From assembly GCA_020974905.1 (NCBI GenBank), contig CP087563.1, positions 5,766,001 to 5,830,000 of the forward strand: a DNA stretch of 64,000 nucleotides, given 5' to 3'. Below the pieces are notes generated by a model. That model was not told the origin of the DNA and made no database searches. It saw only the letters and a program-made list of their open reading frames with translations. Source of the stretch: Planctomycetes bacterium syqfu (lineage in GTDB: Bacteria > Planctomycetota > Phycisphaerae > Phycisphaerales > Phycisphaeraceae). Shown piece by piece: positions 2,388 to 40,698 of this stretch. Position 1 is the first letter of the stretch, and each line of letters starts with the position of its first letter. The translations under genes and the position numbers were made by a program.

Positions 2388-2446
2388 GATCACTTATTGT
2401 TTGAATGTACGAGTACGACCGGGACTTCCATTTTTAGGGGAAAACC

Positions 2447-4981: not shown

Positions 4982-5004
4982 ATGTCCATTAGAAGGTGTA
5001 CACC

Positions 5005-7398: not shown

Positions 7399-7411
7399 GT
7401 AAGGGGAGTAC

Positions 7412-9066: not shown

Positions 9067-9099
9067 TTGGGTTTTTATAAGTAAATCAATTTTTAATGA

Positions 9100-9128
9100 G
9101 TGTCTTCCGATTTTGCGCCTTATATAAT
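9100..9128 (+). promoter_or_regulatory. Candidate sigma-70-type promoter for the gene at 9151
   Basis: TATAAT at 9123-9128 lies 22 bases before the ATG of the next gene in an AT-rich gap. The -35 region is weak (around GTCTTCC, 9102-9108), so the call rests on the -10 element and position. Confidence 0.4.
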
Positions 9129-9150
9129 AGATGGTGAAATCAGGTGACTC

Positions 9151-9495
9151 ATGAAAAAATCTAACCGAATCCCCAAAGATGATCAGTTCTCTGAGGGCGA
9201 CATACGCCGCACATTAACCAACATATTTCATGTGTCCTGCGGAACGATTCCTCCTTTCCTGTGGGTTGCGGCTATTGAAAGATTCATTGACGAGGAGGGG
9301 ATCGAAAAGACAGCACGAGAGGCTGTGCGTTCATTTAATGAGGGCGTGGAATCAATTGGTCAGTTTGACGAAACAATCGATGAAGATGCATACGCACAAC
9401 GATTTATGGCCCAATCCTCAAACTCGTCTGGCGAATTAGCTGAAGCACTATTGAATGATCTTTTGCCGCGTGCCAAGAAATGGTCTGGCACTTAA
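9151..9495 (+). CDS. Hypothetical protein, 114 aa
   Basis: Soluble, acidic, helical protein with no signal peptide or membrane segment. The block 'GTIPPFLWVAAIERFIDEEG' suggests an all-helical fold. Good coding features: its own promoter-like element and a plausible AGGTG ribosome site. I do not recognise the family. It stands alone between the membrane-redox genes and a small basic protein near the prophage edge. Confidence 0.6.
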   Translation: MKKSNRIPKDDQFSEGDIRRTLTNIFHVSCGTIPPFLWVAAIERFIDEEGIEKTAREAVRSFNEGVESIGQFDETIDEDAYAQRFMAQSSNSSGELAEALLNDLLPRAKKWSGT

Positions 9496-9587
9496 TCCAA
9501 GGCAGAAGAACCATGATCGCATGCCATGGTTCAGCACTATCTGATCGCAAAAGGTAAAATGGCATCTTCAAGCAATGCCTGTGGATC

Positions 9588-9821
9588 GTGCCCATGCCCA
9601 AACCTAAGCGTAAACTCACAAAAGCCGAGAAAGCCCGACGTAAAAAACGTCGTGAAGAGACTATGATCATCTTCGTCAACGGCAAGCAGAAACGCGTTAA
9701 GCGACCGCCAACCATTGATGGGATGGATGCCGACGAATTTATCCGTCAAAATGCCGATCCGATGTGGCATCATCAGAACGAGATGTGGGAATGCATCGAT
9801 AAGGATAACGACGGGCTGTGA
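9588..9821 (+). CDS. Small basic hypothetical protein
   Basis: 77 codons from GTG 9588, or 75 from ATG 9594 (MPKPKRKLTKAEKARRKKRR). The N-terminus is strongly basic and looks nucleic-acid binding; the C-terminus is acidic with 'DEFIRQNADP'. No family recognised. It is the last host-like gene before the prophage; 9822-9964 holds no gene and no att repeat that I could match to the right end. Confidence 0.55.
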   Translation: MPMPKPKRKLTKAEKARRKKRREETMIIFVNGKQKRVKRPPTIDGMDADEFIRQNADPMWHHQNEMWECIDKDNDGL

Positions 9822-9964
9822 TTAACCACTGAATGATTTCATAAAAGCCAGGGTTGTATGTGCACTTATCAATTGACAGTGGAGTAACTCGAGTAAAACA
9901 TTGTAGTCAGACCATGGTATCAATTCCATAAGGGATCAGGCAATCGATCTTCAGGGAATGAATA

Positions 9965-10636
9965 TCAAATGCGCCATTTGCTATCGGGAATCGGTAGAAA
10001 ACCGACTTGCTTCCAGTGTTTGGCCAGCTTGTCCTGAGCCTGTTCATATGAACTTTGAAATTGGTCATACTGCATCTTCTGGCTCCAATCATCCTCCCAT
10101 TCTTTGGCTTGAGGATTCATCGGCGCTGGACAAGTAACCGTCAAGCCATCGGCAATATGATGGGCCTTTAGGAATTTACGCATGGCTTGAAGACCAATGC
10201 CCTTGCCACGAAATTCCGGCAGGATTTCGACCGAGTGAATGTACAGCATGTTCCGCATCAAAAAAGTATCTTTGACCCGTTCAGAAACCTTCAATTTAAA
10301 TTCGTCCAGCTCGGGATCAAAGAGCTCTTCATAAATCTCACATGCCTCTTGTGAATCGGCATCCAGCAAATCCCAAACTGATGTGCGGCCAGTGATGACG
10401 CTTTCCAACCAATACTGGATGGCTTTTATGCGTCCCACCTGAATACGCTCCACAACCTCACCTGAGTCATCATATTGGACACGTTCAAGACTGCCTTCAA
10501 TTTTGATGCGGTAGTCCAGCTCATCCGAGAACGATTGGACAGTCCGTGTGATCATTTCGTAATCGTAGTCATCATCTTGATCGTACATCAGTGAATTCCC
10601 CCTTGATGGACAGAACATGTAATTCAGGATTGTCAT
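9965..10636 (-). CDS. GNAT-family N-acetyltransferase-like protein
   Basis: Start set at ATG 10636, which overlaps the stop of the preceding gene in an ATGA arrangement; a longer frame to 10687 would overlap it further. The acetyl-CoA loop is seen in 'SVEILPEFRGKGIGLQAM' (R/Q-x-x-G-x-G/A), typical of GNAT enzymes. The N-terminal ~120 residues are acidic and unassigned. Substrate unknown. As the last gene of the late operon it may be a cargo gene or a modifier of phage or host proteins. Confidence 0.7.
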   Translation of the reverse strand: MTILNYMFCPSRGNSLMYDQDDDYDYEMITRTVQSFSDELDYRIKIEGSLERVQYDDSGEVVERIQVGRIKAIQYWLESVITGRTSVWDLLDADSQEACEIYEELFDPELDEFKLKVSERVKDTFLMRNMLYIHSVEILPEFRGKGIGLQAMRKFLKAHHIADGLTVTCPAPMNPQAKEWEDDWSQKMQYDQFQSSYEQAQDKLAKHWKQVGFLPIPDSKWRI

Positions 10637-10992
10637 AATACCTTCTTGATCGCCCATCGCCACCAGACGCGTGGCAAACCTCGCCAACCGGCGCGATTCA
10701 TCGTGGCCATGCGGGATTTACAGCTGGTGCATGGACGCACCATGCCAAGCGTGGTGACTTGGATGAACATGGAGACCCATGTACCAGGTGGAATGATGCG
10801 ACTGGGCTTGGGCACGGGGACATCGATCCACTTACCCAACGGACATTTGGACGCAGGCAAACTCGTGCGTGATTTGAGGTCAGCACCGTCGATGTCGCAG
10901 TTGCATTTGCGATCCGGATGGGACAAACAACTAACAGCGTGTTCGCATTGACGGCAGATGGATCGGCGTGTGGTGATGAAGTCGGTGGCCAT
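10633..10992 (-). CDS. Cysteine-rich small phage protein
   Basis: Start at ATG 10992 with AGGAGA placed inside the end of the upstream gene. The N-terminal half has C-x-x-C (CRQC) plus further cysteines (CLSH, CNCD, KCPLGKW), a likely zinc site; the C-terminal half has 'CTSCKSRMATMNRAGW'. I have the impression that similar 'CxxCKxRxxxMNxAGW' tails are common in planctomycete prophages, but cannot name a family. It overlaps the GNAT gene by 4 bases. Probably a tail-associated or regulatory zinc protein. Confidence 0.6.
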   Translation of the reverse strand: MATDFITTRRSICRQCEHAVSCLSHPDRKCNCDIDGADLKSRTSLPASKCPLGKWIDVPVPKPSRIIPPGTWVSMFIQVTTLGMVRPCTSCKSRMATMNRAGWRGLPRVWWRWAIKKVL

Positions 10993-11000
10993 GGGTTCTC

Positions 11001-11783
11001 CTAAATTCCTGGTGTGGGATCGCTGCAACTACCGTCACCATTGGAATCGCCGACGATGCAGTTGCCTTCTTCGTCCATACAACTCGTTTCGTCGAGGACT
11101 TCGATTTGCAGCTGGACACGGGCGGGGTTGTCGTAGACGTTCCATACGTTGGTACAGATGCTGTGATTGTGTAGTTCGTCGCTGAGGATTGATGCACTGC
11201 GGCAACTTCCGGGGTTTCCGGGGGCTGAGGGAATGCAGGCAGCGAAGATCCGTCCGCAGGTGTCGTCCGAATCTTCGTTGGCATAACCATCGATGGTGAC
11301 GTACCAACGCGTGGTGCCATCACCATCGCAACCTGCGAGTACCATGGCGTTGACATAACTGCTACAAGTCGCCCCCGGAAGTTCGATGCCATAACCTTGC
11401 CAGCGTGGGCCGCTGATGGTGTTGCTTTCGCAGTTGGGTTGGGGGTGGCCACCGATCATGCCGGAGTGGCCGCAGCCTGGGCAATATGGAGGGTTCCACG
11501 CGCCACAGTTAAATGGAATCTCGATGGTGTTACCCATGAAGGCCGGATCGGTACAGCAGCAACGATCCTGTTCATTGCCGTAGTCGATTAACTGCCAGGT
11601 GATGCGAATGCGGGATTGATTGGTGAAGCAACACGGGCCGCAGGCGCATGCGTTGGCTGGCACTGGTTCCTGGCCGCAGCATTTGCCGCAGATCATGAAC
11701 TCGCCCCCGGAAGTTAAGCCAAACCCACCTTCTCCTTCATTCCGGGGGCGCGGGTCGATGTCGAATTCGCCGTTACTCCCCAT
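11001..11783 (-). CDS. Very cysteine-rich late phage protein
   Basis: 260 residues from ATG 11783, which overlaps the end of the upstream gene by 11 bases. It has 23 cysteines (about 9%), including ICGKCC, ACACGPCC, CCC and CPGC. No signal peptide. The density suggests several metal sites or, in a virion, disulfide cross-links. It carries three copies of the dispersed GCCCCCGGAAGTT word (11204-11225, 11371-11383, 11703-11715), read as NPGS-like, ELPGA and TSGGE. Position after the tape measure suggests a distal tail protein. No family recognised. Confidence 0.65.
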   Translation of the reverse strand: MGSNGEFDIDPRPRNEGEGGFGLTSGGEFMICGKCCGQEPVPANACACGPCCFTNQSRIRITWQLIDYGNEQDRCCCTDPAFMGNTIEIPFNCGAWNPPYCPGCGHSGMIGGHPQPNCESNTISGPRWQGYGIELPGATCSSYVNAMVLAGCDGDGTTRWYVTIDGYANEDSDDTCGRIFAACIPSAPGNPGSCRSASILSDELHNHSICTNVWNVYDNPARVQLQIEVLDETSCMDEEGNCIVGDSNGDGSCSDPTPGI

Positions 11784-12669
11784 CGTCACATACCTCCACA
11801 GCCATGGTTTCGTTGGCGTCATACAGGATGAATTCGCGTAATCCGTCAGAGGGGTTGGTGACGTAATAACCAGTGCCGATGACGCCATCGCCGGTTGCTG
11901 GTGCGGTGACGAGTTTGCCTGCTGCGGGACGTTGTTTGAGGGGCGTCAGTTCCTCGCCGAGAATTGTGCCATCCTCCTCTTCGTCGTAAGCGTCGATGGT
12001 TTTGACGAAGTACGTGCGATCACATTGTGTTGTGGCATCGCCGTCGGTTGTGCCACCGTCCTGCCAGACTTTGCAGGGAATAAGTGTTGTGGTATCAACA
12101 AGACTCGGAACACCGAGTTTGACGATGGCCCAACATGGTTCGCCGATGGGGACTTCGGGTTGGCTCCAGAGAATCTGTGTACTGCCAGTAGCCGACGATG
12201 TCATGATCGCCGGAACGCCCACGGGTGCTTTGGCATATTGATGAGTTTCATCAGTAATGATGATTCGCACCTGACAAACGCCCTGGATCATCGCACGGCC
12301 AACCTGTCCTGCACGAATCGGTTCAAGCAGGATCGCGTGTTTGTCCATGGCGACATGCGTGTTCGATTCAGGGAACACACCGCTGAAGACGATCTGATCG
12401 ACGAAACTGCCTTCCAGATCCATGATCGTTTGCGGCTCATGTACCGAGTCTTCGATGCCAAGGATAAAGTAACGCCAACAATCCATGGGCGAATCATTCT
12501 TCACCCAGATCACCCCCGGAAGTTGAGAAGATGAGTTCTGGGATTGCTGGGCGGGTTTTTGGCGCGGCTTGATGCGCTCACGAAAATCCGTCGCCGCATC
12601 TATGAACGCGTTGTATGTGTTGGCCGGGATCACCAAGGGATCGCCGGTGCTGACTTTTTTCAATGTCAT
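11773..12669 (-). CDS. Late phage protein, probably distal tail
   Basis: 298 residues, no signal peptide or membrane segment, rich in beta-strand character. The opening 'GDPLVIPANTYNAFIDAATDF' resembles openings I associate with phage proteins encoded after the tape measure in planctomycete prophages, but I cannot name a domain. One copy of the dispersed word lies at 12512-12524 (reads QLPGV). Same strand and tight spacing as its neighbours, so part of the late operon. Confidence 0.6.
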   Translation of the reverse strand: MTLKKVSTGDPLVIPANTYNAFIDAATDFRERIKPRQKPAQQSQNSSSQLPGVIWVKNDSPMDCWRYFILGIEDSVHEPQTIMDLEGSFVDQIVFSGVFPESNTHVAMDKHAILLEPIRAGQVGRAMIQGVCQVRIIITDETHQYAKAPVGVPAIMTSSATGSTQILWSQPEVPIGEPCWAIVKLGVPSLVDTTTLIPCKVWQDGGTTDGDATTQCDRTYFVKTIDAYDEEEDGTILGEELTPLKQRPAAGKLVTAPATGDGVIGTGYYVTNPSDGLREFILYDANETMAVEVCDDGE

Positions 12670-12693
12670 GATTAAGGTTCCGGGGGCCGGGGG

Positions 12694-13563
12694 TTAAGAG
12701 CCAATGTCTAGCAAACTGAAATCGGCGGACTCATAAACCTGTTCGACGTAAGCTGCGACCGGGCGTTTGACCATGGCCATGGCATTCATGTCTTCGACGT
12801 CTGCGTAACGAACCCACAGGTATTCCCAACCCTTTTTGGCAATGCCGGTGATGCTGCCGATGGTGATGCCTGTTTTGTTGGGCGATGCAGCGAACCTGTA
12901 AGTGATCTCCCAATCCCCGCCCCCGGAAGTTCCGTCTGTAAATTCGGTGCCATGCAATGTCCCCGATGCACCGAGGAACAAACACTCACCCGCCGCCAGG
13001 CCACGGAACGCTGCGTTGTTCACCTTGCCGGTGAGTTGGAACAACGTGCCTTTGTATTCAGGCGTCACTTGTTCAACAGTGAGGTAATGGGTTTCGCTGA
13101 AGTTGTAGATAGGCACAGTAACATCGACGCCCTGGACTTCAGCATTACCATTGGTGTTGGACACACCGATCGCACCATGGAAGTCCGGCGCAGACGGAAT
13201 CGACGAATCGGCATACGAACCCACGGTGCCCAATGACTGGGTGATGTGTTGCGTGCCACCCATCGTGTCAAAGCTATACGTGTACTCATTGCTACCGGGA
13301 TCAGGCGTCCCCCCGGAACTTGAAGACGGTGAAGACGAGTCGGCGTAACGAACCGAAGCATCCCAAAACTCTTCACTGATCGGCTCGATCTGCACGGACT
13401 GCATAGGCAGACCGTCATAGGTTTCGGGAGCAAAGTTTTCGACAGCAGATTTGATGGCAAGATCATCATCACTGCCACTGGCAATGTACGTCAGCGTCAC
13501 CTGAGCGTTGGCACCCGTTGTGCTCTGACGACTGTCATATTTTTCCTCAACTGTGATGGGCAT
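12694..13563 (-). CDS. Late phage protein, probable tail protein
   Basis: 289 residues, beta-rich. 'YTYSFDTMGGTQHITQSL' and 'TVPIYNFSETHYLTVEQVTPEYKGTLFQLTGKVNNAAFRGLAAGECLFLG' look like a tail or baseplate beta-sandwich. A Ser/Gly-rich linker at ~75-92 (SSSPSSSSGGTPDPGS) is partly made by a copy of the dispersed word (13310-13321); another copy at 12919-12931 gives GTSGGG. It follows the tape measure gene by 17 bases. Function inferred from position. Confidence 0.65.
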   Translation of the reverse strand: MPITVEEKYDSRQSTTGANAQVTLTYIASGSDDDLAIKSAVENFAPETYDGLPMQSVQIEPISEEFWDASVRYADSSSPSSSSGGTPDPGSNEYTYSFDTMGGTQHITQSLGTVGSYADSSIPSAPDFHGAIGVSNTNGNAEVQGVDVTVPIYNFSETHYLTVEQVTPEYKGTLFQLTGKVNNAAFRGLAAGECLFLGASGTLHGTEFTDGTSGGGDWEITYRFAASPNKTGITIGSITGIAKKGWEYLWVRYADVEDMNAMAMVKRPVAAYVEQVYESADFSLLDIGS

Positions 13564-13580
13564 GAGTTACTCCGAGGGGA

Positions 13581-15953
13581 TCAAGAGAAGGAGAGTGATG
13601 AACTACCGCCAGGATTGTTCTGCACTTCATTGAACAATTTCTTGACATATCGGGCGGTGTCTTCGCTGGCAGCAGCCGTGCGTTGGGCAATAGATTGGTT
13701 CGTCATCAGGCCCTGCAAGGCAGCAGAATTGAACGTGCCACGCGATTGTTGATTGGGACTCAGCGTGCCAATCTGCCCACCGAGTTCAGCGAGTTTTTTC
13801 TTGAGGGTGTCGATCAAGTTGTCGGGCGATACAGGTTGATCACCAGCTTGGTCACCTTCCGGGGGTTTGTTTTGTGCGGCTTGTTGGAGAAGTTGTTGAT
13901 ACTCAGCACGGGTCTTTTCCAGATCGTCCAATGCCGTAGCCATCTGCTTTTCGTACTGGGTTTGGCGACTCTTGTTCCCCGCAGTTTGTTCCTGATCAAT
14001 GAGCTTTTGCTGGGTTTGGCGTTCATGATCGATGCGTGCTAGGTCCGTATCATGTTGTTGTTTGTTTTCAGCCAACGCTGCATTTTTCTGATTGGCAATC
14101 TGCTGCTTGTCCGCGTTGGCATTGGTGCGGGCAATGTTGATCGCCATATCGACGTTGTAGTCCTTGTCGAATAATCCAACCAGATGATGCATGCCTTCCT
14201 CAACCTTGAGTTGGGCAGATCGGAACGTCGACTGCAAACCCGCCGTCATCGTCGTCCATGCATCGGAGAGGAACGTTGTCGTTTGAACCCAGAGGATTCT
14301 CAGGCCATGCCAGGCATCCACGAGGACCTTGGTCACCTTATAGAAGGCTTGGCTGGCGACATTGACGATGGTGTACTTGAAGCTGTACCAAAGTGATTCG
14401 ACTTGGTAGATACCGCGTTGCCATTCGACTTTGAGTGCTTGCCAGAGGATTTTCGCAGCCATGCTTAAATCGCCAGATGCCAACGCATCACGGATTCCCT
14501 GCCAAGCTACAAGGGCACGATCTTTCAGATCATTGAAGCGATCACTAAGCCAGTTGAGTGTCTTGGACGCAATGTCCGTCATACTCAGGATGGCAATGCC
14601 GATGCCCGCCGCCGCGACGATCACCAAGCCCATGGGCGAGAGCAATGCACCCAACACCGTGAGCAAGGTGCCGATCACACCGACACTGCCAGTGATGATG
14701 CCCGACAAGCCACCGAAGATGAAGGCGATTGTCTGTGCGGCGATGCCGGTGGTCATCAGGATCACGCCGACAGCAGCGATGCCTGCAATCACCAGTGCAG
14801 CGGATCGCACCAGTGACTGGTTCTTGCTGAGCAGATCAATGACCATGCCTGCATACTTGGACACAATGGCAGCCGCCCTGGCGACGGGTTCGCTCAAGGC
14901 TTCGCCCATGATGCCAAGCACGATGATGCCAGCCTGTTTGATACGATTGAAGGCATGCGTCAATGTCTTGCTGAGTTTGGCATAAGCCTTGTCAGTCAAC
15001 CCCGCGCGGCTCTGCATCGCATCCAGGTCAGACTCAAAACCCTTGAGATTGTTCAGCGCGGGCACAATACCACGCAGAGCCGCCGAGTCGGGGAACAGTT
15101 TGGCCAGTACGTCGGGTGGCAGCTTGGCGAGTTTTTCCATGACGCCGTGCAACCCCTCGGTCTTGAGCGTCGTGGTGTTCATTTCAAAACCAAGCTCATG
15201 AGCCAACTTGGTTGCTTCAGCGCTGGGCTTGAGGAAACTCCGCAAAATGCCATTGACCGAGTCGATAGCCGTGGTGGTGCGCAGGCCATTTCGCGTGAGC
15301 GTGGCAATCATCGCACCCAGTTCATCCAAGGGCAGGCCCGCACTGGCAGCGGTCGATGCGACCATACCGATCTGCGGGGCCAGTTCGGCAAAGGTGGTCT
15401 TACCACGCTGCACAATGCCAAACAACCAATCGGAGACATCGCCAGCTTGTTCCGCAGCCAGGCCATAACTGTTGAGCACCGTGGTGATGGCATCGGCTGC
15501 AGTTTGCGTATCAGTGAGTCCCGCCTTGGCAGACTTGGCAGCAACGCCCAGTACATCCAGTGCCTTGGCCGGGGCAATCGAAGCTGAAAGAATGTCGTAC
15601 AAACCACCGGACAAGGCTTCGGTGGATTCCCCAAAACTCACCGCCATTTTGCGGATGCCCTTGATGAAACCGTCCATGTATTTTTCAGCATCAGAATCCG
15701 AGAGCATCGTGGCGACGGTGGCCATCTGCTGCTGAAAGTCCGCATAGATTTTCAGGCCAGAGAGCAGAGGCACCGCCGCCACAGCAGACACAGCAGTCAG
15801 TCGCTTGCCAATTTCACCGACAGACTTCCCGAAGGCTTTGACACGCTTTTGGGCTCTGTCGAGACCACGCACGAGCTTGCTGTCCTGCGTGGTCAGCTCA
15901 ATATACGCAGCCCCAGCACGAATATTCCGACTGTTGGCAATACCTGGCGACAT
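13581..15953 (-). CDS. Phage tail tape measure protein (TP901 type)
   Basis: 790 residues. The N-terminal ~330 residues show the TP901/TIGR01760 pattern ('AKSAKAGLTDTQTAADAITTVLNSYG' and 'QIGMVASTAASAGLPLDELGAMIA'). Residues ~340-470 hold several hydrophobic helices (e.g. 'LVIAGIAAVGVILMTTGIAAQ'), followed by a long coiled coil with many Gln and Lys (~620-720). The protein sets tail length and is threaded into the host at infection. It is preceded by a gap holding an inverted repeat and the lipoprotein gene. One copy of the dispersed word is at 13855-13866. Confidence 0.9.
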   Translation of the reverse strand: MSPGIANSRNIRAGAAYIELTTQDSKLVRGLDRAQKRVKAFGKSVGEIGKRLTAVSAVAAVPLLSGLKIYADFQQQMATVATMLSDSDAEKYMDGFIKGIRKMAVSFGESTEALSGGLYDILSASIAPAKALDVLGVAAKSAKAGLTDTQTAADAITTVLNSYGLAAEQAGDVSDWLFGIVQRGKTTFAELAPQIGMVASTAASAGLPLDELGAMIATLTRNGLRTTTAIDSVNGILRSFLKPSAEATKLAHELGFEMNTTTLKTEGLHGVMEKLAKLPPDVLAKLFPDSAALRGIVPALNNLKGFESDLDAMQSRAGLTDKAYAKLSKTLTHAFNRIKQAGIIVLGIMGEALSEPVARAAAIVSKYAGMVIDLLSKNQSLVRSAALVIAGIAAVGVILMTTGIAAQTIAFIFGGLSGIITGSVGVIGTLLTVLGALLSPMGLVIVAAAGIGIAILSMTDIASKTLNWLSDRFNDLKDRALVAWQGIRDALASGDLSMAAKILWQALKVEWQRGIYQVESLWYSFKYTIVNVASQAFYKVTKVLVDAWHGLRILWVQTTTFLSDAWTTMTAGLQSTFRSAQLKVEEGMHHLVGLFDKDYNVDMAINIARTNANADKQQIANQKNAALAENKQQHDTDLARIDHERQTQQKLIDQEQTAGNKSRQTQYEKQMATALDDLEKTRAEYQQLLQQAAQNKPPEGDQAGDQPVSPDNLIDTLKKKLAELGGQIGTLSPNQQSRGTFNSAALQGLMTNQSIAQRTAAASEDTARYVKKLFNEVQNNPGGSSSLSFS

Positions 15954-15972
15954 GCTAAACCTTTTTTATTCA

Positions 15973-16074
15973 CCGCCAAGACGCCAAGGACGCCAAGATC
16001 GGATGAGATGAAACATGATTGAATAAACAAATTGAAAAACTTGTCTGGCCTTGGCGCTCTTGGCGTCTTGGCGG
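15973..16074. repeat. Inverted repeat of CCGCCAAGACGCCAAG type
   Basis: Left arm 15973-15997 contains three GCCAAG units; right arm 16050-16074 is its inverse with small changes. The 52-base loop is AT-rich. This interspersed sequence type is seen in many bacterial genomes as a stand-alone palindromic element. It fills the gap between the lipoprotein and tape measure genes. Confidence 0.7.
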
Positions 16075-16083
16075 TTCAAACAA

Positions 16084-16545
16084 TTAGGTAAGCGCAGGCG
16101 TGGCAGTTGTAGTCTTTCTGCCTTCGTCCAGGCCCTTGTTGAAGGAGGCTTCTTTTTCCTTGCGGAGTTTGCCAGAACCGAGGAACAGGCCAAGTAAACC
16201 GGATGCAGCAGGTAGCATGGGACCGAGGACGGGAACGCCTGCGACCGTGGGACCGATTTCATCAAGTGCTGACAGCGACAACTGGTTGACCATGTTGCGG
16301 ATTTCGTTGGCATGCTCAATGTTGGATTTCCACTGGCTGCCAGCGGTTTGCATGTGTTGATACCAGAGTTGGTATTCGCTTTCGGCCTCGTTGAGTGAAA
16401 TGTTGCTGGCAAGGCCGGTTTGCTGCTGGATGGTGTTGGGTGTTTTGACGTGGATCATGTCGCCCATGTCACAGCCTGCAAAACTCAGCAGGCCCAGAAC
16501 GACGAAGGTGAGAATGAACAGGAAGATCAGATGGTTGGTTTTCAT
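16084..16545 (-). CDS. Phage-encoded lipoprotein
   Basis: 153 residues. The N-terminus is a lipoprotein signal: MKTNHLIF, a hydrophobic core, then lipobox 'LSFAGC' with Cys ~25. The mature part is helical with a Gly/Leu-rich hydrophobic stretch (~118-137, 'PMLPAASGLLGLFLGSG') that could span a membrane. Candidate roles are spanin-like lysis protein, holin partner or superinfection-exclusion lipoprotein. It overlaps the preceding gene by 4 bases, inside the tail module. Confidence 0.65.
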   Translation of the reverse strand: MKTNHLIFLFILTFVVLGLLSFAGCDMGDMIHVKTPNTIQQQTGLASNISLNEAESEYQLWYQHMQTAGSQWKSNIEHANEIRNMVNQLSLSALDEIGPTVAGVPVLGPMLPAASGLLGLFLGSGKLRKEKEASFNKGLDEGRKTTTATPALT

Positions 16546-16841
16546 AATGATGGTTTCCTTTTGCTTCCGGGGGAAGGGACAAATGTGCGTTTGAGAAGTG
16601 CCATGGCATCGTCTGTATCCAAGGGGATCACTTGCGATGACTGGCTTTGGGCAAACGGATCAAAGTCCGCTGCTTTGAACGTATGGGAACGATTGAAGGT
16701 CAGCAGATTGGCAAGCAGTGCCATCAGGTTGGATGTATGTTGCCAATCCTGTTTCTGGCGACTCTGGGCCATCTCGTAGAGTTCACGCAACGTGAACGGA
16801 TCGGGGTGAACGCCAAGGATGCCCGCTAATTGCCAGATCAT
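16542..16841 (-). CDS. Probable second tail assembly chaperone
   Basis: 99 residues; 'MIWQLAGILGVHPDPFTLRELYEMAQSR' is the pattern of gpGT/T-type tail chaperones encoded between tail tube and tape measure. Its ATG (16841) overlaps the stop of the upstream chaperone in an ATGA junction, so it is made by re-initiation; I see no slippery sequence for a frameshift. The C-terminus (VPSPGSKRKPSL) is partly written by a copy of the dispersed word at 16564-16573. Confidence 0.65.
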   Translation of the reverse strand: MIWQLAGILGVHPDPFTLRELYEMAQSRQKQDWQHTSNLMALLANLLTFNRSHTFKAADFDPFAQSQSSQVIPLDTDDAMALLKRTFVPSPGSKRKPSL

Positions 16842-17311
16842 GTCTTGGCAGGTTGCAGCAGGTGTTCGAGTTGCTGTTGGAGTTCCGGACTGTCCAGTTG
16901 GGCACTGGCGATTTCCAGGGCTTTTTCCTCGACCATGCGAAGCTTGCTTAGTGCTTTCTTGAGCACTTGCCGCTTCGCTGCGGGGAAAAAATCTGCCAAC
17001 TCCTGAAGCAGTGCTGTGGTGGCATGATCGATCACGTCACCAGCAAGTGCTTGGCCGAACTGCTCGTCGGTCACGTTGGCACTCTCAGCTTGATCCTTGC
17101 AAATCGCATAAAGCACATCACAGAGCAGGATCGGGTCAGTGGAGAGTTTTTCCAACAGGTGGGATTTACTATCCAAGACATCCAGCAGGTTGACGCCGAC
17201 GAGGGCCTGGACACGTTTGATGGTGGCGACCGTAATCTGCACCGTCCATACGATGTTGCCGGGGCTTGGACTTCCGGGGGCGGGACTTCCGGGGGTGGTG
17301 AAGGTATGCAT
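16838..17311 (-). CDS. Probable tail assembly chaperone (gpG-like)
   Basis: Start at ATG 17311, overlapping the tail tube stop. 157 residues, helical. The opening MHTFTTPGSPAPGSPSPGN is made by two tandem copies of the dispersed word (17270-17295), directly before the conserved part 'VWTVQITVATIKRVQALVGVNLLDVLD'. Position between tube protein and tape measure is the main reason for the call. The C-terminal half is Gln/Leu-rich and helical. Confidence 0.6.
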   Translation of the reverse strand: MHTFTTPGSPAPGSPSPGNIVWTVQITVATIKRVQALVGVNLLDVLDSKSHLLEKLSTDPILLCDVLYAICKDQAESANVTDEQFGQALAGDVIDHATTALLQELADFFPAAKRQVLKKALSKLRMVEEKALEIASAQLDSPELQQQLEHLLQPAKT

Positions 17312-17739
17312 TAGCTGCCACCTCCATCCACCCAAGTCGGGGCGCGGGTGACATAGGTTGGTTTGACCGTCACGTTGACCGTGATGGCTTCTTCGAGCGG
17401 TTCGTTGCGCGTGAAGTTGGTGACCGAGAAATCGGCATCAAGGCCACTACCACCTTCACCATCGAGCACAGCCATGGCGATGGGTGTGTTGTTGAAATAC
17501 GCATCCTTGATGGCAATAAAACCTTCGTCGGCAGCGTCCCAGTTCATACTGAACTCAACACTGCCATTCTTGAGCGTGGCGATGGTTGCACGCCAACCTT
17601 GGCTAGCGCGCGTCGTTACGTCTGCCTCGTTGGTTTCGAGGTTGAGCGTGACATCCTTGGTGTTTGTCAGCTCACTTGTTGCGGATGCTCCAGCTGCGCC
17701 GTAGTACAGCTTGGCCTGCATCCCTAAACGGATGGACAT
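17311..17739 (-). CDS. Phage major tail (tube) protein
   Basis: 142 residues, beta-rich: 'LTNTKDVTLNLETNEADVTTRASQGWRATIATLKNGSVEFSMNWDA' is typical of the tail tube family of long-tailed phages and related contractile tubes. It ends in WVDGGGS. It has its own GGAG ribosome site and lies between tail completion and chaperone genes. Makes the repeating ring of the tail tube. Confidence 0.8.
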   Translation of the reverse strand: MSIRLGMQAKLYYGAAGASATSELTNTKDVTLNLETNEADVTTRASQGWRATIATLKNGSVEFSMNWDAADEGFIAIKDAYFNNTPIAMAVLDGEGGSGLDADFSVTNFTRNEPLEEAITVNVTVKPTYVTRAPTWVDGGGS

Positions 17740-17774
17740 AGTTTTCTCCTATTTTGAAGGGTTATTTGTGTTTT

Positions 17775-18170
17775 TTATCGAATCGAGCCTGCCCAAAACC
17801 GGGGCAGACGCGGTAAGTTTTTATTCAGTGCTGGCCCCATGAACGGTCTCTTTCTATAGTTGCCACCACGGAAGCGACCGCCGAATTCATGAGCCATGGC
17901 CGAGGGGCCAACGTGGGCGAAACCGGGGCCGATTAACACTCGGTCGTTACCTTCGCGGGCATACACAATGGAACGCCGCAGTTGGCCGTGTCGTGTACGC
18001 GGTGGCGAACCAGGTGATGCGTAACGTTTACTCCGTCGAATACTCCGCCGTGCGGTCAACCGAATCGCTGCACCGGCATGGCCCAAGCTCTGAAAACTCG
18101 CCTGGTTCATTTTATGCCGGATCAGTTTTCGGTTCAGGCCGTCGTGGGGTTTAAAGTGAACTCTGAGCAT
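17775..18170 (-). CDS. Head-tail/tail completion protein, gp10-like
   Basis: 131 residues, strongly basic. 'SPPRTRHGQLRRSIVYAREGNDRVLIGPGFAHVGPSAMAHEFGGRFRG' matches the pattern of HK97 gp10-type and gpZ-type completion proteins (hydrophobic strand, GP motif, 'AHEFGG'). It lies between the tail terminator and tail tube genes, as expected. Call by motif and synteny. Confidence 0.65.
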   Translation of the reverse strand: MLRVHFKPHDGLNRKLIRHKMNQASFQSLGHAGAAIRLTARRSIRRSKRYASPGSPPRTRHGQLRRSIVYAREGNDRVLIGPGFAHVGPSAMAHEFGGRFRGGNYRKRPFMGPALNKNLPRLPRFWAGSIR

Positions 18171-33296: not shown

Positions 33297-35042
33297 TCAA
33301 AAAGGGATTTCGTCGTCGGGCCATTCAGTCCAGGGCTGATCGGGCAATGTGGTACTGGCCACCGGTTCACGTTCATCGCTGCCATCCACACGAGGTGGAA
33401 TAGAGCCAAGTTCATAGTTGATGATGCGGTCGAATTTTTCACCGGTGACCGAACGTACTGTGATGGACAACGGTTGGGCTAATGCGCCAGCTTCAGCCAA
33501 CTCGACTGCCTGCTCCACGGTGTTGGGCATCGGTTCATTGGATCGGGCCTGCCACCATGTGCTGGCTTTTTGCCAGGCGTAGCTGCCTTTGGGGTGCGCC
33601 ACGCAGATCCATTCACTGTGGTATTCGTTGAACCCGCAGCGGTAATCAACACGTAGCGTCTTGGGATGATCCGGCGGTGCGCCACGTTTAGTGTGGATGC
33701 TGTAATAAACGAACGACACATCGTAATCGGTTTCGGTGACTTGGCCGCTCAACACACCAGCAGTTGACGCACTGCCGTCATGTTTTTCCCGCTCAGGTGG
33801 TGGGAATTCATGGCCACAATCCGGACACACGCTGTAGGATGCATGGATCAATGCCTGGCAGTTGGGACACTCCTTGGCCGGCGCTTCACTGTTGCCTTTG
33901 CGATCAGACTTATCTTTGATCTGCAACGCATCCACCGGACCATGCCGCAGGATATTGCCGCCAAAGTCCAGCACCAAGCAGTTGGTTTTGGTCGGATGCA
34001 GTCGGAATCCCCGACCCAGCATCTGGTAGTAAAGCCCCGGTGAGTTGGTAGGGCGGAGCAGTGCAACACAATCGATGTTGGGGGCGTCGAAGCCGGTGGT
34101 CAATACATTGACATTGACCAGATACTTGAGATCACCATCCTTGAAACGCCGCAGAATGTCATCACGGAAGATGCCGGAACTGTCTCCGCAGACAAATCCA
34201 CACTCGTGTCCCATGTCGGCCAGGACGCGCTGCACGTGCTGGGCATGCTGCACGCTGGCAGCAAAGATCAGGACGGAATTGCGATCACGTGTTTGCTCAA
34301 CGATCTCCCGGCAGGCCGAGTGAACCAAGGCGTCGTCATCCATCAGTGCTTCGACTTCACCGGCGATAAATTCGCCAGCACGTATATGCAGACCGGATGT
34401 ATCCGCCTTGCGTCGGCCAGCCTTGGTCTTGAGTGGGCACAGGTAGCCTTGGGCAATGAGCTCACGCACACCCACCTCGTAGCAAACATGATTAAGTAGG
34501 TGGTCTGGCCCACAAATCGTGCCGCTGGTCATGCGGTAGGGTGTGGCGGTCAACCCGATCAATCTGACATTAGGATTGATTGCCTTGGCATCCTGTAAGA
34601 ACTGCTGATACATGCCTTCGCCGTTGGGCGGCAGCATATGAGCTTCGTCGATCAGAATCAGATCGAACGAGTCCAACTCAGCAGCTTTACGATAGACCGA
34701 CTGAATGCCTGCCACGATGATGGCATGGTCTGTGTCCCGGCTCTTAAGCCCCGCCGAGTAGCACCCAATTTGATGCCATAAGTCAGGGGCCATGGCGTGA
34801 AGTTTGTCCACGGCCTGTTCAATCAATTCCTTGACATGAGCCAGGATCAAAACGCGACCATCCCACTGTGTGACCGCATCACGGCAGATCGTTGCCATCA
34901 GGGGCGTCTTGCCCCCAGCTGTCGGGATGACAACACAAGGATTGTCATCCCGACAGCGCAGATGCTCATACACGGCGTCCACCGCTTCAGCCTGATACGG
35001 GCGCAGGGTGATGGTGTTGGGTTGTTCACAAACAACTGACAT
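33297..35042 (-). CDS. DEAD/DEAH-box superfamily 2 helicase
   Basis: 581 residues. Motif I 'VIPTAGGKTPLMATI', motif II 'LILIDEAHMLP', motif III-like 'IGLTATPYR', and C-terminal domain 'VNVLTTGFDAPNIDCVALLRPTNSPGLYYQMLGRGFRLHPTKTNCLVLDFGGN' (motifs V and VI). A zinc ribbon 'CPNCQALIHASYSVCPDCGHEFPPPE' (~395-420) follows, then a ~140-residue tail with 'YHSEWICVAHPKGSYAWQKASTWW'. This is the SSL2-like replication helicase typical of phages. The start overlaps rusA. Confidence 0.88.
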   Translation of the reverse strand: MSVVCEQPNTITLRPYQAEAVDAVYEHLRCRDDNPCVVIPTAGGKTPLMATICRDAVTQWDGRVLILAHVKELIEQAVDKLHAMAPDLWHQIGCYSAGLKSRDTDHAIIVAGIQSVYRKAAELDSFDLILIDEAHMLPPNGEGMYQQFLQDAKAINPNVRLIGLTATPYRMTSGTICGPDHLLNHVCYEVGVRELIAQGYLCPLKTKAGRRKADTSGLHIRAGEFIAGEVEALMDDDALVHSACREIVEQTRDRNSVLIFAASVQHAQHVQRVLADMGHECGFVCGDSSGIFRDDILRRFKDGDLKYLVNVNVLTTGFDAPNIDCVALLRPTNSPGLYYQMLGRGFRLHPTKTNCLVLDFGGNILRHGPVDALQIKDKSDRKGNSEAPAKECPNCQALIHASYSVCPDCGHEFPPPEREKHDGSASTAGVLSGQVTETDYDVSFVYYSIHTKRGAPPDHPKTLRVDYRCGFNEYHSEWICVAHPKGSYAWQKASTWWQARSNEPMPNTVEQAVELAEAGALAQPLSITVRSVTGEKFDRIINYELGSIPPRVDGSDEREPVASTTLPDQPWTEWPDDEIPF

Positions 35043-35443
35043 CAGTTGGAAAATTCCTCAGTTAATGGGCGTTTACAAAGTGGGCATACATGCAAAGGCA
35101 CGTCGCGGATTTCAACCGCCAGATGGCCATGCGGTTTGTCAGGCTGACGTCGTCGCGTGATCAACAAATCGATCTGTGAATCATCCAGATAGACACCGGC
35201 ATGCTGCATCGCATCGAGCACCGGCTTCTGTATGTTGTCCAGATCACGTCGACGACGATCCGGTGGGAAGGCGTCCATCGCCAGAGCAAGGCGACCGTCC
35301 CTTGGGGGTTGGCCGCCCATGCCCTGGCACTGTGTCATCACTTGCTGGCGATACGCGCGACCGCCACGACTAATGAGTGTTCGCCCCCGGAAGTGTCGCC
35401 AGTAGTGATTGACGGATGGTGGGTAAGGTAAGACTAATTCCAT
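35042..35443 (-). CDS. rusA: RusA-type Holliday junction resolvase
   Basis: 133 residues. 'LPYPPSVNHYWRHFRGRTLISRGGRAY' and 'DRRRRDLDNIQKPVLDAMQHAGVYLDDSQIDLLITRR' carry the conserved Asp residues of RusA nucleases. It resolves branched DNA during replication and packaging. A CxxC pair (CPLCKRPLTEEFSN) is added at the C-terminus, unusual for a short RusA. A copy of the dispersed word at 35383-35394 encodes HFRGR. Confidence 0.9.
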   Translation of the reverse strand: MELVLPYPPSVNHYWRHFRGRTLISRGGRAYRQQVMTQCQGMGGQPPRDGRLALAMDAFPPDRRRRDLDNIQKPVLDAMQHAGVYLDDSQIDLLITRRRQPDKPHGHLAVEIRDVPLHVCPLCKRPLTEEFSN

Positions 35444-35454
35444 GTGCCACCCCC

Positions 35455-35937
35455 TTAGCGTTTCCAGGGCGGCGTGCTGCCCGAAGTCTGTTGCGATTGG
35501 GTATTGGTTGTGTCGCTTGAACTGTTATTGACATTGCCTGTCTGTTTGGGGGCGTAACCTCGAATTTCATTCGAAAGCTCATCGGAATCCGAACGTTTTT
35601 TGAGTTTGACGCTGATCACCAGTGGCAAGTTATGCAGGTCGACACTGTCATTGGGTTTCATGACATTGACTGCGCGGCAGATGGCTGACAGGTCGCCCTG
35701 TGCGATTTTCACGGCAGTGGCATTGGGGTTTTCCAGGTTCAAACGCGACCAGAGTTGCCTGCCCTTGTAATCGCCTTCCAGAATGCTGAAGGTGAGTTCA
35801 AGGTAGCTGCCGTTCCCGGATTTCGTTTGTTTCGTTTCTGATGCAGTGATGGCAGCCAGGTACTTGCCCGCGGGGATCGGTTCGAAGGTGGTGTTGGGTT
35901 CGACGTCATGTGCGTTAAAGCCATTGAGATTAGCCAT
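35455..35937 (-). CDS. DUF669 single-strand-DNA-binding-like protein
   Basis: 160 residues: 'FEPIPAGKYLAAITASETKQTKSGNGSYLELTFSILEGDYKGRQLWSRLNLENPNATAVKIAQGDLSAICRAV' is the DUF669 pattern, a phage OB-fold-like ssDNA-binding family. The C-terminal tail is Ser/Thr/Gln-rich and disordered, as in SSB proteins. Set between an ATPase and RusA in the recombination-replication module. Confidence 0.85.
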   Translation of the reverse strand: MANLNGFNAHDVEPNTTFEPIPAGKYLAAITASETKQTKSGNGSYLELTFSILEGDYKGRQLWSRLNLENPNATAVKIAQGDLSAICRAVNVMKPNDSVDLHNLPLVISVKLKKRSDSDELSNEIRGYAPKQTGNVNNSSSDTTNTQSQQTSGSTPPWKR

Positions 35938-35996
35938 AGAGATATTGCTCCATTAGTTGGGAAATGGTGGTCGACAAAAAAGCTTGTTTTTAAGGG

Positions 35997-36800
35997 TTAA
36001 TGTTTGAGTTTGAGATTGGTTGTTTGATTGGACGTGGGGGCGTCGGTCTGTGTCATGGCTTCCATCAAGGCATACCACGACAGCGGCAGTTCGGTCGGTA
36101 GTCCGTATCGGTTCTTGGCCACGCACGCCGGGCTACCAACACAACGCATCACGCGCTCGCCACCATCCTTGCCTAAACCGGAAGCCAAGGTGCGGTTGCG
36201 ATTGAAACCGGCGTCCTCGGTTTTGGTGATGATCTTTCGCGTGGCAAACAGCACGGCATCGGCCCACTCTGTGATCACTGCGTTGGCATGCTTATGTAGG
36301 CGTGGGGAAAAACGGTCATACGCACCGACTTCAGGATCAGAGAACGTTTCGACCTTGGAATGGGCCAACAGGATCACGCACATGCCGCGCTTGGTGCGCA
36401 GGGTGTCCAAGCCGGAAAGTAACATGCGCCACAGTGTCAACGCATGCGTGTAACCTCGCGCATAACCGCCATCGACCTTCTCGATGCTGTTGACGCCGTA
36501 ATCCTTGCAGAGTCGATCCCAGATCAAGCGTTCAAGCCAGTCGAGGGAATCGATGACAACACTTTGATATTCGTGTTCGTCTTTGATCAGCGAATCGATG
36601 GCGTTGATGACAACATCAAACGTAACAGCCAGCGGAAAACTCGCACAATCGATTTGATCCAGGCCGTCTTCGGTTTGAATGAAAATGGGATTCGGTGCTT
36701 GCGATGCGGTGGTGGATTTGCCGATCCCTTCGGTGCCGTAGAGCACGATGCGCGGTGGGGATTGACGTTTGCCGGTGTGAATCTGTTGCAGTAGGGACAT
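35997..36800 (-). CDS. AAA-type ATPase of phage recombination module
   Basis: 267 residues. Walker A 'YGTEGIGKSTTA', Walker B 'YQSVVIDSLDWL', sensor-like 'GMCVILLAHSKVETFSDPEVGAYDRFSPRLHK'. The AAA_24/Sak4-like pattern is that of phage single-strand annealing ATPases and RecA-like NTP-binding proteins. With DUF669 and an exonuclease-like gene it forms a recombination set. Confidence 0.85.
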   Translation of the reverse strand: MSLLQQIHTGKRQSPPRIVLYGTEGIGKSTTASQAPNPIFIQTEDGLDQIDCASFPLAVTFDVVINAIDSLIKDEHEYQSVVIDSLDWLERLIWDRLCKDYGVNSIEKVDGGYARGYTHALTLWRMLLSGLDTLRTKRGMCVILLAHSKVETFSDPEVGAYDRFSPRLHKHANAVITEWADAVLFATRKIITKTEDAGFNRNRTLASGLGKDGGERVMRCVGSPACVAKNRYGLPTELPLSWYALMEAMTQTDAPTSNQTTNLKLKH

Positions 36801-36842
36801 GAATCAAATTCCTGTATATGATGGGTGTGACCAATACAAACA

Positions 36843-36898
36843 GTCGCCTGCTCCGAACTCCCCGCCCCTGTACACTCCAAGGGGCGGGGAGAGGCGAC
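36843..36898 (-). promoter_or_regulatory. Strong two-part hairpin between nuclease and ATPase genes
   Basis: Outer stem GTCGCCT (36843-36849) with AGGCGAC (36892-36898); inner perfect stem CTCCCCGCCCC (36859-36869) with 36881-36891. No T-run follows, so not a simple terminator. It lies inside the early operon and may tune downstream expression or protect RNA. Confidence 0.6.
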
Positions 36899-36914
36899 AA
36901 CTTCCGTGGGTGGG

Positions 36915-37736
36915 TTAGGCAGCACTGAGTAGACGGATGTCTTCGTAGCCGGTGGGCCAGTGATCGAGTGCCTGGCAGGTTTTTAACCGATGGATCGCGG
37001 CTTCGTTCTCGTTGGCTGCGTCGTCCAATGAATCTTCACTGACACGCCAGACGCCGCAGCGATAAGGTTCCTTCTTCTCCACAGCCACGATGTACACCGG
37101 CACCAGTTCTCCGATCTGTTCGCACAACACCGATTGATAAAAGGCAAGCTGATTGATGTAGCGATACTTGCGGGCATCCCACTCAAACGTCGACAAATCC
37201 TTGCACGTTTTTAAATCCACAATGCCGCGATGCGGATGTAGCCAGTCGATTCGAATCTGACAATCGACATCCCAGCGATTCACACGAACCACGCCTTCAG
37301 CACGGCCATAGAGCAGCAAGTCCACAGCTTCACTGTTCATACTCACGCCACTGGCCAGGTTCTCAATCTTGTCGATGTCGTCGAAGTGGATGCCGGGTTT
37401 GCCTTGTGCCTGAACCCAATTCTGGAAGGCTTGAGATTCTTTGCCGAAGGGCTTTTTCGTTTTGGGATTGATCGGACCACCCAATGCGAATTGGGATTCA
37501 TACGCATCACGGCCTTCCAGAATTCGGCAGTGTGCAGCACGACCAAGCAGATAAGCTTCGGATTCCTTGGCTTGTATCAATGCCAATTGTTTCTTGCGGT
37601 AAAACCATGGGCAGGTCATGAAGTCGATCAGTTGATGACTCGACAAATATTGCTTTGCTTTGGCGTGGTATTCGTCAGCTGGTTCCGTACCCAGCAGGCT
37701 TAGGTCAATGTTCAACTCATCGAATATTTTCGTCAT
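36915..37736 (-). CDS. PD-(D/E)XK nuclease, RecE-like
   Basis: 273 residues. 'YLLGRAAHCRILEG' (conserved His helix), 'DCQIRIDWLHPHRGIVDLKTCKDLSTFEWDARKYRYINQLAFYQSVL' with catalytic D...D-x-K and the C-terminal Gln/Tyr motif. This is the DUF3799/RecE type exonuclease domain. First gene of the early operon. Provides 3' overhangs for annealing with the neighbouring ATPase and DUF669 protein. Confidence 0.85.
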   Translation of the reverse strand: MTKIFDELNIDLSLLGTEPADEYHAKAKQYLSSHQLIDFMTCPWFYRKKQLALIQAKESEAYLLGRAAHCRILEGRDAYESQFALGGPINPKTKKPFGKESQAFQNWVQAQGKPGIHFDDIDKIENLASGVSMNSEAVDLLLYGRAEGVVRVNRWDVDCQIRIDWLHPHRGIVDLKTCKDLSTFEWDARKYRYINQLAFYQSVLCEQIGELVPVYIVAVEKKEPYRCGVWRVSEDSLDDAANENEAAIHRLKTCQALDHWPTGYEDIRLLSAA

Positions 37737-37779
37737 ATCAGTCTCCTCGTGTTGCAGTCGTGCGGCACACCACGTCCGC

Positions 37780-37803
37780 CCATAACTGTTATTTGCCGCA
37801 GAG
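37780..37803 (-). promoter_or_regulatory. 24-base repeat upstream of early operon (copy 2)
   Basis: Matches 23500-23523 at 23 of 24 bases. Located 44 bases before the nuclease start. Contains ATAACTGTTAT and TTTGCCGCAGAG. Confidence 0.5.
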
Positions 37804-37813
37804 GGGCGATTTT

Positions 37814-37945
37814 GGGATGCAGGGACATGAAATCACCTTCCTGACAGGTTTAGTGACATGTCCCTGCAAGCCCTGACAGGCTTAGTGACAGGTTGTCTGA
37901 CATATGTCTGTTCGCTGACAGGTCCATCTCTACAGACATGTCCCC
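37814..37945. repeat. Repeat-rich control region before the integration module
   Basis: Holds GATGCAGGGACATG (37816-37829), ACATGTCCCTGCAAG (37856-37870), three CTGACAGG copies (two followed by T/CTTAGTGACA) and ACAGACATGTCCC. The gap 37737-38026 contains no gene. It separates the divergent early (minus) and integration (plus) genes, so promoters for both are expected here. Confidence 0.6.
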
Positions 37946-38026
37946 GGTGGTGCCACGATCATGAAAAACAGATGGCCCAGAGCGTCTGGGCAAATGCGAA
38001 AAGCCTGTTTTTCAAGAGGAAAAGGC

Positions 38027-38569
38027 ATGACAGAGGAAAAGTTGTTGGCGTTGTACGAAGGGGTTTTTGAACCATGGAAAATGCGATTGGCCTTGAGCCG
38101 AATCAAAGCGATGCGGTTTCCTAAACGCGATTGGGAGGACATGATGCAGGAAGCTGCCATGGTGATTTGGTCTTTTGAGTTTGTCCCTGCAAAGGCCAAT
38201 GGGGCGACGGAGTTGACGGTTCTCTATGCCGTCATCAACCAACATTTGCTGGACTTGATGCGGAAGCGATGTCGTTACCGCAAACGATATGAAAAGGTGC
38301 TACGTCAACTGGGTGTGCATGAGGATGGCACGTTCCATGGCGAAGAGCCATCTTGCGAAATGATCATGCCTGTGATGATGGATGTGCAGACCGCAACAGC
38401 CAGGTTGTCGGACTTCGATCAGGACGTCGCGTTCCTGTTGTCCCAAGGCTACAACTGCAACGAAATTGCCCGGATGTATGAATGCGAATGGAAAACCATC
38501 AACAGGGCGATGCAACGAATCAAGGCATGTTTTGATGCGGTGGATGTAAATGGGGAGTTGTTGAAATGA
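38027..38569 (+). CDS. ECF-like sigma factor / region 2-4 transcription factor
   Basis: 180 residues from ATG 38027 (AAGAGGA site). Region 2-like 'DWEDMMQEAAMVIWSFEF... VINQHLLDLMRKRCRYRKR' and region 4 HTH 'DFDQDVAFLLSQGYNCNEIARMYECEWKTINRAMQRIKACF'. Such short sigma-like proteins on phages drive late or integration genes. It may recognise the 24-base repeat before two phage operons; this is speculation. Confidence 0.7.
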   Translation: MTEEKLLALYEGVFEPWKMRLALSRIKAMRFPKRDWEDMMQEAAMVIWSFEFVPAKANGATELTVLYAVINQHLLDLMRKRCRYRKRYEKVLRQLGVHEDGTFHGEEPSCEMIMPVMMDVQTATARLSDFDQDVAFLLSQGYNCNEIARMYECEWKTINRAMQRIKACFDAVDVNGELLK

Positions 38570-38906
38570 ATCAGGTTGTGCAGCATTCCCCAAAGCCGGT
38601 TCAAAGATTTACCCCACATTCGCCAGAACCGACTGGACATTCTTTGAACCTTGAGGCTCAATGTGACACCCCCGGAACCCCCGCCCCCGGAAGTTTACGT
38701 TCCGAAAAGTCCAGAGATCTTTCGGGGCTTCCGGGGGCGATGGAAACTCGGTGGATGACGGAAGGATTGATTGCTCGAACGCAGGACGCGTGGGGCAACT
38801 ACCTTGGCAGAGAAGTTGATCGAGAGGAAGCCATGGAGATCTTGTTTAACGTCCAGCAGATTGCATTGGCGTTCTATCTGGCCGGCACGGAAGGAGATTC
38901 TGACGA

Positions 38907-38910
<4 letters not shown>
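38566..38910 (+). CDS. Small protein upstream of recombinase
   Basis: 114 residues, overlapping the sigma-like gene and the recombinase by 4 bases each. The N-terminal half is low complexity; residues ~34-60 are largely written by three copies of the dispersed word (38668-38738, giving PGTPAPGS and GLPGA). The C-terminal 50 residues 'DAWGNYLGREVDREEAMEILFNVQQIALAFY' are conserved-looking and typical of proteins encoded just before such recombinases. Confidence 0.65.
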
Positions 38911-40462
<1,552 letters not shown>

Positions 40463-40615: not shown

Positions 40616-40698
40616 AGGCCGCGGTGGGATTCGAACCCACGATAGCTTACGCTAGCTGATTTGCAATCAGCCCCATTAGTCCACTCTGGCACACGGCC
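40616..40698 (-). tRNA. tRNA-Cys (GCA) with long variable arm (class II)
   Basis: Acceptor GGCCGTG/CGCGGCC, anticodon stem GCTGA/TCAGC with loop TTGCAAA (anticodon GCA), a 14-base variable arm with stem TAGC/GCTA, T-arm GTGGG TTCGAAT CCCAC. Discriminator U73 fits CysRS; tRNA-Ser would have G73. Ordinary bacterial tRNA-Cys has a short variable loop. No encoded CCA. Confidence 0.85.

Follow-up and report, generated by a model that had tools for sequence, protein, structure and literature searches.

The window, that is, the whole 64,000-nucleotide stretch of DNA analysed here, carries on its minus strand a gene called as tRNA-Cys(gca) by ARAGORN and matched by the Rfam model RF00005 at 54.4 bits (E 6e-9), a covariance-model fit in line with what the earlier note had read from the letters alone. 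The features of this gene and of its upstream neighbour are as follows.

40616..40698, minus strand: tRNA-Cys(GCA), 83 nt, 7/5 cloverleaf with a long variable arm (ARAGORN, RF00005, fold)
40662..40664, minus strand: anticodon GCA (ARAGORN; position counted by hand)
40641..40654, minus strand: variable region TAGCGTAAGCTATC, bases 44 to 48 (parsed gene; position counted by hand)
40616..40616, minus strand: discriminator U73 (T in the DNA), one of the main Cys identity bases (parsed gene; role from the available part of PMC9976931)
40790..41308, minus strand: hscB-like co-chaperone gene, lying just upstream of tRNA-Cys and on the same strand (PF07743, 54.8 bits)

The hscB-like gene is a neighbour, and no part in tRNA function is implied for it. 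The window also holds a phage-like block (33297-40406) that finishes with a serine recombinase of 499 aa (PF00239, PF07508), the end of which overlaps a tRNA-Pro(TGG) gene (40387-40462). Neighbours in this phage-like block include DUF3799, AAA_24, DUF669, and a helicase. The 3' end of the tRNA-Pro gene has a single copy in the window, so the other border of the block was not found there. ARAGORN calls this tRNA-Pro gene, and RF00005 at its gathering threshold does not, either in the window or in the whole genome.

Parsing of the tRNA-Cys gene yields an acceptor stem of 7 bp, a T stem of 5 bp with the loop TTGCAAA, and a variable region of 14 nt, which places it in class II as defined here (a variable region of at least 10 nt with a stem). 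The arm consists of the stem AGC/GCT, a GTAA loop, and an optional U44-A pair. The TAGC/GCTA stem of the earlier note therefore stands if U44 is counted as paired; in the minimum-energy fold, however, base 44 pairs with base 26 and A-U-C is left on the 3' side. That fold contains the cloverleaf plus the variable hairpin AGC-GUAA-GCU, with a z of -2.72 relative to shuffled sequences and 2 of 200 shuffles folding equally well. In this fold, the anticodon loop is also reduced to only three bases, with two extra pairs in the D loop, and both features are taken as folding artefacts. The two marks on which the gene had originally been named, GCA within the cloverleaf and U73, are both present, and the marks of tRNA-Ser (G73 and a Ser anticodon) are absent. 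Reassignment to Ser, an outcome that would have overturned the original identification, did not happen. Rather, the body (the 69 positions outside the variable region, the same positions in all 131 genes compared below) differs at 3/69 positions from the nearest class I tRNA-Cys of a relative (L071). The window gene is confirmed as a genuine tRNA-Cys with a class II arm.

Structure of the arm across relatives

Our comparison set comprises 131 distinct tRNA-Cys genes (82 long and 49 short) from the Phycisphaerales lineage, left after 7 of 138 parsed tRNA rows were dropped as shifted alternative parses (base 8 not T, or a misfit of length or D loop). U73 and C48 are invariant in all 131 genes of both classes, while the variable region has 12-16 nt and forms a stem in the long genes vs 5-6 nt in the short ones. 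Scored over three pairs, 98.6% of cells are paired in the set of 23 distinct 14-nt arms, where 10 Watson-Crick types occur, and 89.3% in the set of 14 distinct 16-nt arms; neither share was reached by any of 2000 shuffles, which ignore relatedness. For the 5 distinct 12-nt arms, the pairing was not significant (203/2000 shuffles as high). The arm loops are mostly GNRA-like, with GTAA, GCAA, or GAAA in 51 of the 82 long genes. Because the stem of this arm covaries among the relatives, the window arm is more than a chance pairing, in keeping with its original description as class II, and we take it to be a real base-paired RNA hairpin.

In the genome that holds the window (G000), two unpaired bases lie between the arm and C48 in both tRNA-Cys and tRNA-Tyr, unlike in tRNA-Ser, where the arm stem abuts C48 (all read by hand). 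The accessible part of PMC13206607 likewise gives the number of unpaired bases after the arm in bacteria as two for Tyr, one for Leu, and zero for Ser. The class II tRNA-Tyr of G000 further resembles the window tRNA-Cys in its nine-base D loop (read by hand).

We also compared core bases between the two classes. GGA at positions 9/13/22 occurs in 74/82 distinct long-arm vs 20/49 short-arm genes (Fisher 2.4e-9, uncorrected for relatedness), and a tree-aware test of positions 9/13, which had core bases for all but 13 of the 58 tree genomes, had only 5 supported pairs, too few for significance. A core change to G9 and G13 was not established as a condition for the arm, since 8/82 long-arm genes do not have GGA and A9/A13 is found in many of the long-armed tRNA-Tyr of these genomes.

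A single tRNA-Cys gene and its predicted charging

The G000 genome consists of one contig of 7,376,598 bases (7.38 Mb) and is 95.78% complete. RF00005 has 49 matches in it, 47 of which are named by ARAGORN, and the window gene is the only Cys among these. As this search is not exhaustive, the window's tRNA-Pro having escaped it but not ARAGORN, two further searches for tRNA-Cys were added, one with the window tRNA itself as query and one with a pattern that admits tRNA-Cys of either class, and each gave 1 match in G000. To the question of whether this is the only tRNA-Cys or a second one, the ARAGORN, RF00005, own-sequence, and pattern searches thus give the former answer: one was found in the genome, and it is not a minor second gene. 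It is possible that a second tRNA-Cys was missed at 95.8% completeness, despite the one-contig genome. Elsewhere in G000, L047 (G000:C1:1616177-1616289) is a 113-nt tRNA-like match of 46.6 bits whose variable region is very long and which has no ARAGORN call, and L044 (G000:C1:5254920-5255005) is a tRNA-Leu with the anticodon AAG, which is unusual in bacteria; tRNA-Leu(GAG) is absent among the named tRNAs.

One full-length CysRS gene (cysS) is present in G000. Its 500-aa product scores 393 bits against TIGR00435 (cut-off 340) and covers positions 2-465 of the 466 of the model; we infer that the weaker PF01406 matches are other class I synthetases. The SepRS (sepS) and SepCysS models remained below their curated cut-offs in G000 (25.9 of 380.65 bits and 37.3 of 365.25 bits, respectively), such that the indirect SepRS/SepCysS route was not detected there. 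The single match to RF01852 (tRNA-Sec) above cut-off in G000 sits at a tRNA-Ser(tga) gene. All five EF-Tu cysteines of G000 are encoded by TGC or TGT, including the one in HVDCPGHA, which we take to be the conserved Cys87. The solved CysRS structures matched include 1li5, 1li7, and 1u0b, presumably all of E. coli CysRS, with 1u0b as the tRNA complex. According to the available part of PMC9976931, U73 and GCA are the main CysRS determinants in E. coli and yeast, and E. coli CysRS uses an atypical G15-G48 tRNA pair. This pair is absent from the 131 distinct tRNA-Cys genes, in all of which base 48 is C. Since U73 and GCA stay constant among genes whose variable regions differ, tolerance of the arm by CysRS is the simplest interpretation. 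The window tRNA is best read as a housekeeping tRNA-Cys with predicted charging by CysRS. It has the anticodon, U73, and 7/5 cloverleaf of the ordinary bacterial class I tRNA-Cys(GCA). Class I genes of the same order have bodies close or identical to those of the long-arm genes, and at some loci the two classes have neighbours in common. The ordinary form differs in its short variable region, which does not have the arm stem of the long genes.

The long arm would also be compatible with charging by SerRS or TyrRS, in which case the tRNA would carry serine or some other class II amino acid, with mischarging or ambiguous Cys codons as the result. Bacterial tRNA-Tyr carries the anticodon GUA and A73, unlike the window tRNA-Cys, although GCA has G34 and A36 in common with GUA, two bases that matter to TyrRS identity. 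The arm offset is likewise equal to the bacterial tRNA-Tyr value in the part of PMC13206607 available. However, U73 is invariant, the tRNA is the sole one found for UGC/UGU, codons that are used for the EF-Tu cysteines, and its arm offset is unlike that of the tRNA-Ser of this genome. SerRS in particular, which the earlier note had entertained as a charging enzyme, is disfavoured by the contrast between U73, invariant in the lineage, and G73, a Ser mark in the accessible text of PMC7609411, as well as by the offset of two unpaired bases vs the zero given for Ser in the section of PMC13206607 at hand. We consider either form of charging very unlikely. The long-arm Cys tRNAs that the earlier note mentioned from some bacteria are probably the selC* tRNA-Cys species (Mukai et al. 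2017, per the available part of PMC7609411), which have a long arm, the anticodon GCA, and U73 in common with the window gene. They differ from this gene: their stems are 8/4 with a bulged 51a and they sometimes occur with CysRS*, whereas the window gene is 7/5 with a standard CysRS. The same text reports them in Firmicutes, Thermodesulfobacteria, Nitrospirae, and Proteobacteria, whereas the window is from Planctomycetota, and its term "isoacceptors" suggests that a normal tRNA-Cys always accompanies them, whereas no additional isoacceptor was found in G000. Membership of the window tRNA in a selC* tRNA-Cys system, or in another recoding system with a special CysRS* or SelB*, fails on structure. 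Together with the one CysRS, a near full-length family match, and the sole tRNA-Cys found, this makes such membership extremely improbable. The arm could also be imagined as an intron-like insert that is removed from the mature tRNA. Its stem covaries, however, its loops are mostly GNRA-like, and most genera with more than one sampled genome keep to a single form, long or short. Variable-region splicing of this kind is not known in bacteria. Introns in the variable region are possible in archaeal tRNAs (PMC4810241, as far as its text was available), but for the window gene we regard an insert of this sort as highly improbable.

Distribution and alternation of the two classes

A DNA search of 61 genomes recovered tRNA-Cys in two sizes, 81-85 nt in many of the genomes and 74 nt in others. 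A pattern that spans the anticodon loop to the T arm, and can match 3'-half fragments too, matched 44/51 genomes of the window's family f1 (34 long and 10 short, counted by hand) and 134/140 genomes of the sister family f2 (68 long, 65 short, and one with both). Among the matches listed, the genomes of family f3 are short, G342 excepted; the only genome of f4, G039, is long. Across the phylum, 179 of 294 genomes were matched, the other 115 being without a match and hence not scorable for class, and among the matches listed the long forms all belong to f1 and f2, which are of the same order. Odd long pattern matches in G192 and G487 are not tRNAs, and a third, in G383, was set aside on inspection by eye.

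A stricter long-arm pattern, which needs exact letters and can miss long-arm genes such as L058 (G006), found 118 stretches in genome_contigs (84,980 species), 110 of which have a full tRNA-Cys of at least 80 nt by ARAGORN. The records of these 110 are labelled Phycisphaerae, Phycisphaerales, Phycisphaeraceae, Phycisphaera, or Algisphaera, or only Planctomycetota, Planctomycetaceae, or bacterium, with one Leptolyngbya. We take this last record (Leptolyngbya sp. PLA1, L218) as mislabelled because Phycisphaerales SJ502 (L179) has an identical tRNA-Cys. The remaining eight stretches have no such full gene: L167, L202, and L206 are tRNA-Cys 3' halves, L226 is a long-arm tRNA-Cys cut by the contig end, L180 (Halpernia) is near a tRNA-Ser, and in L203, L238, and L257 no tRNA was found. 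Positions 2205-2251 of L180 (Halpernia humi) resemble the 3' part of a tRNA, with TTGCAAATCC and a variable region that is long; this fragment, about 0.9 kb from a tRNA-Ser(GGA), is perhaps an attachment-site remnant. No convincing class II tRNA-Cys was found outside Phycisphaerales, either among the matches listed for the phylum sample or with the exact-letter pattern in genome_contigs. Within Phycisphaerales, long-armed tRNA-Cys is common.

Seven pairs of class I and class II genes are identical at 69/69 body positions, among them G375 (L297, short) and G050 (L067, long), which belong to one genus. The genera g20, g34, g274, and g281 are of mixed class and g315 holds the genome with both forms, the constancy of form in most other genera sampled more than once having been judged by hand. 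Gene neighbourhoods also extend across the classes, as one upstream-ORF cluster brings together 74 long loci and 2 short ones (L340 and L336) and the short locus L337 has a downstream ORF cluster in common with 10 long loci; these clusters were built by single linkage, which can chain, and some genomes were entered twice. By tblastn, hscB lies upstream of tRNA-Cys not only in the window but also in L050/L158 (G003), L051/L219 (G001), and L061 (G019), and this neighbour is common only to long-arm relatives.

We mapped class onto a quick LG+G4 tree of CysRS from 58 genomes (33 long and 25 short), a sample enriched for mixed genera and drawn from a set of 60 after L116 (G060, no ORF past the motif filter) and L136 (G036, tRNA class unassigned) were left out. 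Class requires 16 changes on this tree, at least 8 of which are forced by well-supported branches, and the short G387 and the long G377 are sisters with a support of 100. Shuffled labels required a mean of 18.9 changes, with 57/500 shuffles as low as the observed 16, indicating that class is hardly clustered; part of the 16 changes may stem from tree error or CysRS gene transfer. Of 578 CysRS column-residue combinations ranked against class, the 12 strongest were tree-tested with low power, and no column reached 0.05 among the results listed, the pairs being too few for significance. What is supported is repeated class switching in Phycisphaerales rather than any exact number of changes. Because the rest of the sampled phylum shows class I, class I is likely the ancestral state of tRNA-Cys here.

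Possible routes of arm change and their meaning

Several loci carry partial or second copies of tRNA-Cys. At L346, a 16.5-kb stretch (1588-18150) is bounded by an intact class II tRNA-Cys on one side and by a copy of that gene's 3' half on the other, and a tyrosine integrase gene (PF00589, 55.3 bits) overlaps the tRNA-Cys 3' end, making the stretch a putative integrative element. Class II arms are likewise carried by the 3'-half fragments in L167, L202, and L347. In G482 (L168/L329), a full class II and a class I tRNA-Cys lie about 260 bp apart (L168, about 1640-1995), and this genome with both classes could be an intermediate of a class change. The class I tRNA-Cys of L168 has an A-C mismatch adjoining the anticodon loop (read by hand). 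Because the copied 3' half includes the arm, an exchange of arms by such elements is conceivable in principle. Integration of elements whose attachment site is the tRNA-Cys 3' half, from the anticodon loop to the 3' end, would then replace the variable region and could switch the class, while the function stays that of a plain tRNA-Cys. Such an exchange would fit the L346 element, the further fragments, the two-class genome, and the unchanged bodies of the seven pairs. An indel within the loop accounts equally well for the identical bodies, however, and in all four genomes showing both a fragment and an intact gene the two carry the same arm, with no class mismatch. We therefore consider cassette exchange unlikely; if true, it would amount to a mobile-element-driven change of tRNA class. 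The same-genome tRNA-Tyr was rejected as an arm donor: across 22 genomes, Cys arms resembled the Tyr arms of their own genome no more than those of other genomes, the observed similarity (0.683) being below the shuffled mean (0.709) and 1954/2000 shuffles being as high as or higher than observed.

The literature, as far as the text of each source was available, describes tRNA-Cys as class I (PMC4810241), or as long-armed only in the 8/4 selC* form. A sole-gene 7/5 long-arm tRNA-Cys did not appear in the titles and abstract openings returned by open-access literature searches, and a term search found no variable-arm terms in PMC8762117 and PMC5424206. Nematode long-arm tRNAs with class I anticodons similarly place a long arm on normally class I isotypes, but the available part of PMC4810241 describes them as seemingly nonfunctional, whereas the window tRNA is the sole one found for its codons. 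In the corresponding part of PMC9976931, arm losses are named for tRNA-Tyr (twice) and for the Leu and Ser tRNAs of animal mitochondria, and the model in PMC13206607, from the portion available, derives a 5-nt loop from a 14-nt arm via a 9-nt deletion.

We consider it highly probable that the window gene is the sole, long-arm housekeeping tRNA-Cys of its genome, charged by CysRS, with an arm that has arisen in the order and has been repeatedly gained or lost. The tRNA would read UGC/UGU and carry cysteine, one standard CysRS would recognise U73 and GCA and tolerate the variable region, and the two unpaired bases before C48 would set the variable hairpin at a tRNA-Tyr-like angle. The arm would have arisen within Phycisphaerales, with repeated gain and/or loss through changes of the variable region, sometimes with nothing else altered; we infer the direction of each. 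According to the parts of the literature available, a long arm otherwise marks Ser, Leu, Sec, and bacterial Tyr tRNAs. An essential tRNA, single-copy as found in G000, thus appears to have repeatedly changed class in one order. The 14-nt and 5-nt forms exist side by side in living relatives, as do other arm lengths, and the natural pairs with the variable region as their sole difference make the cost of the arm, synthetase discrimination, and the origin of tRNA classes directly testable.
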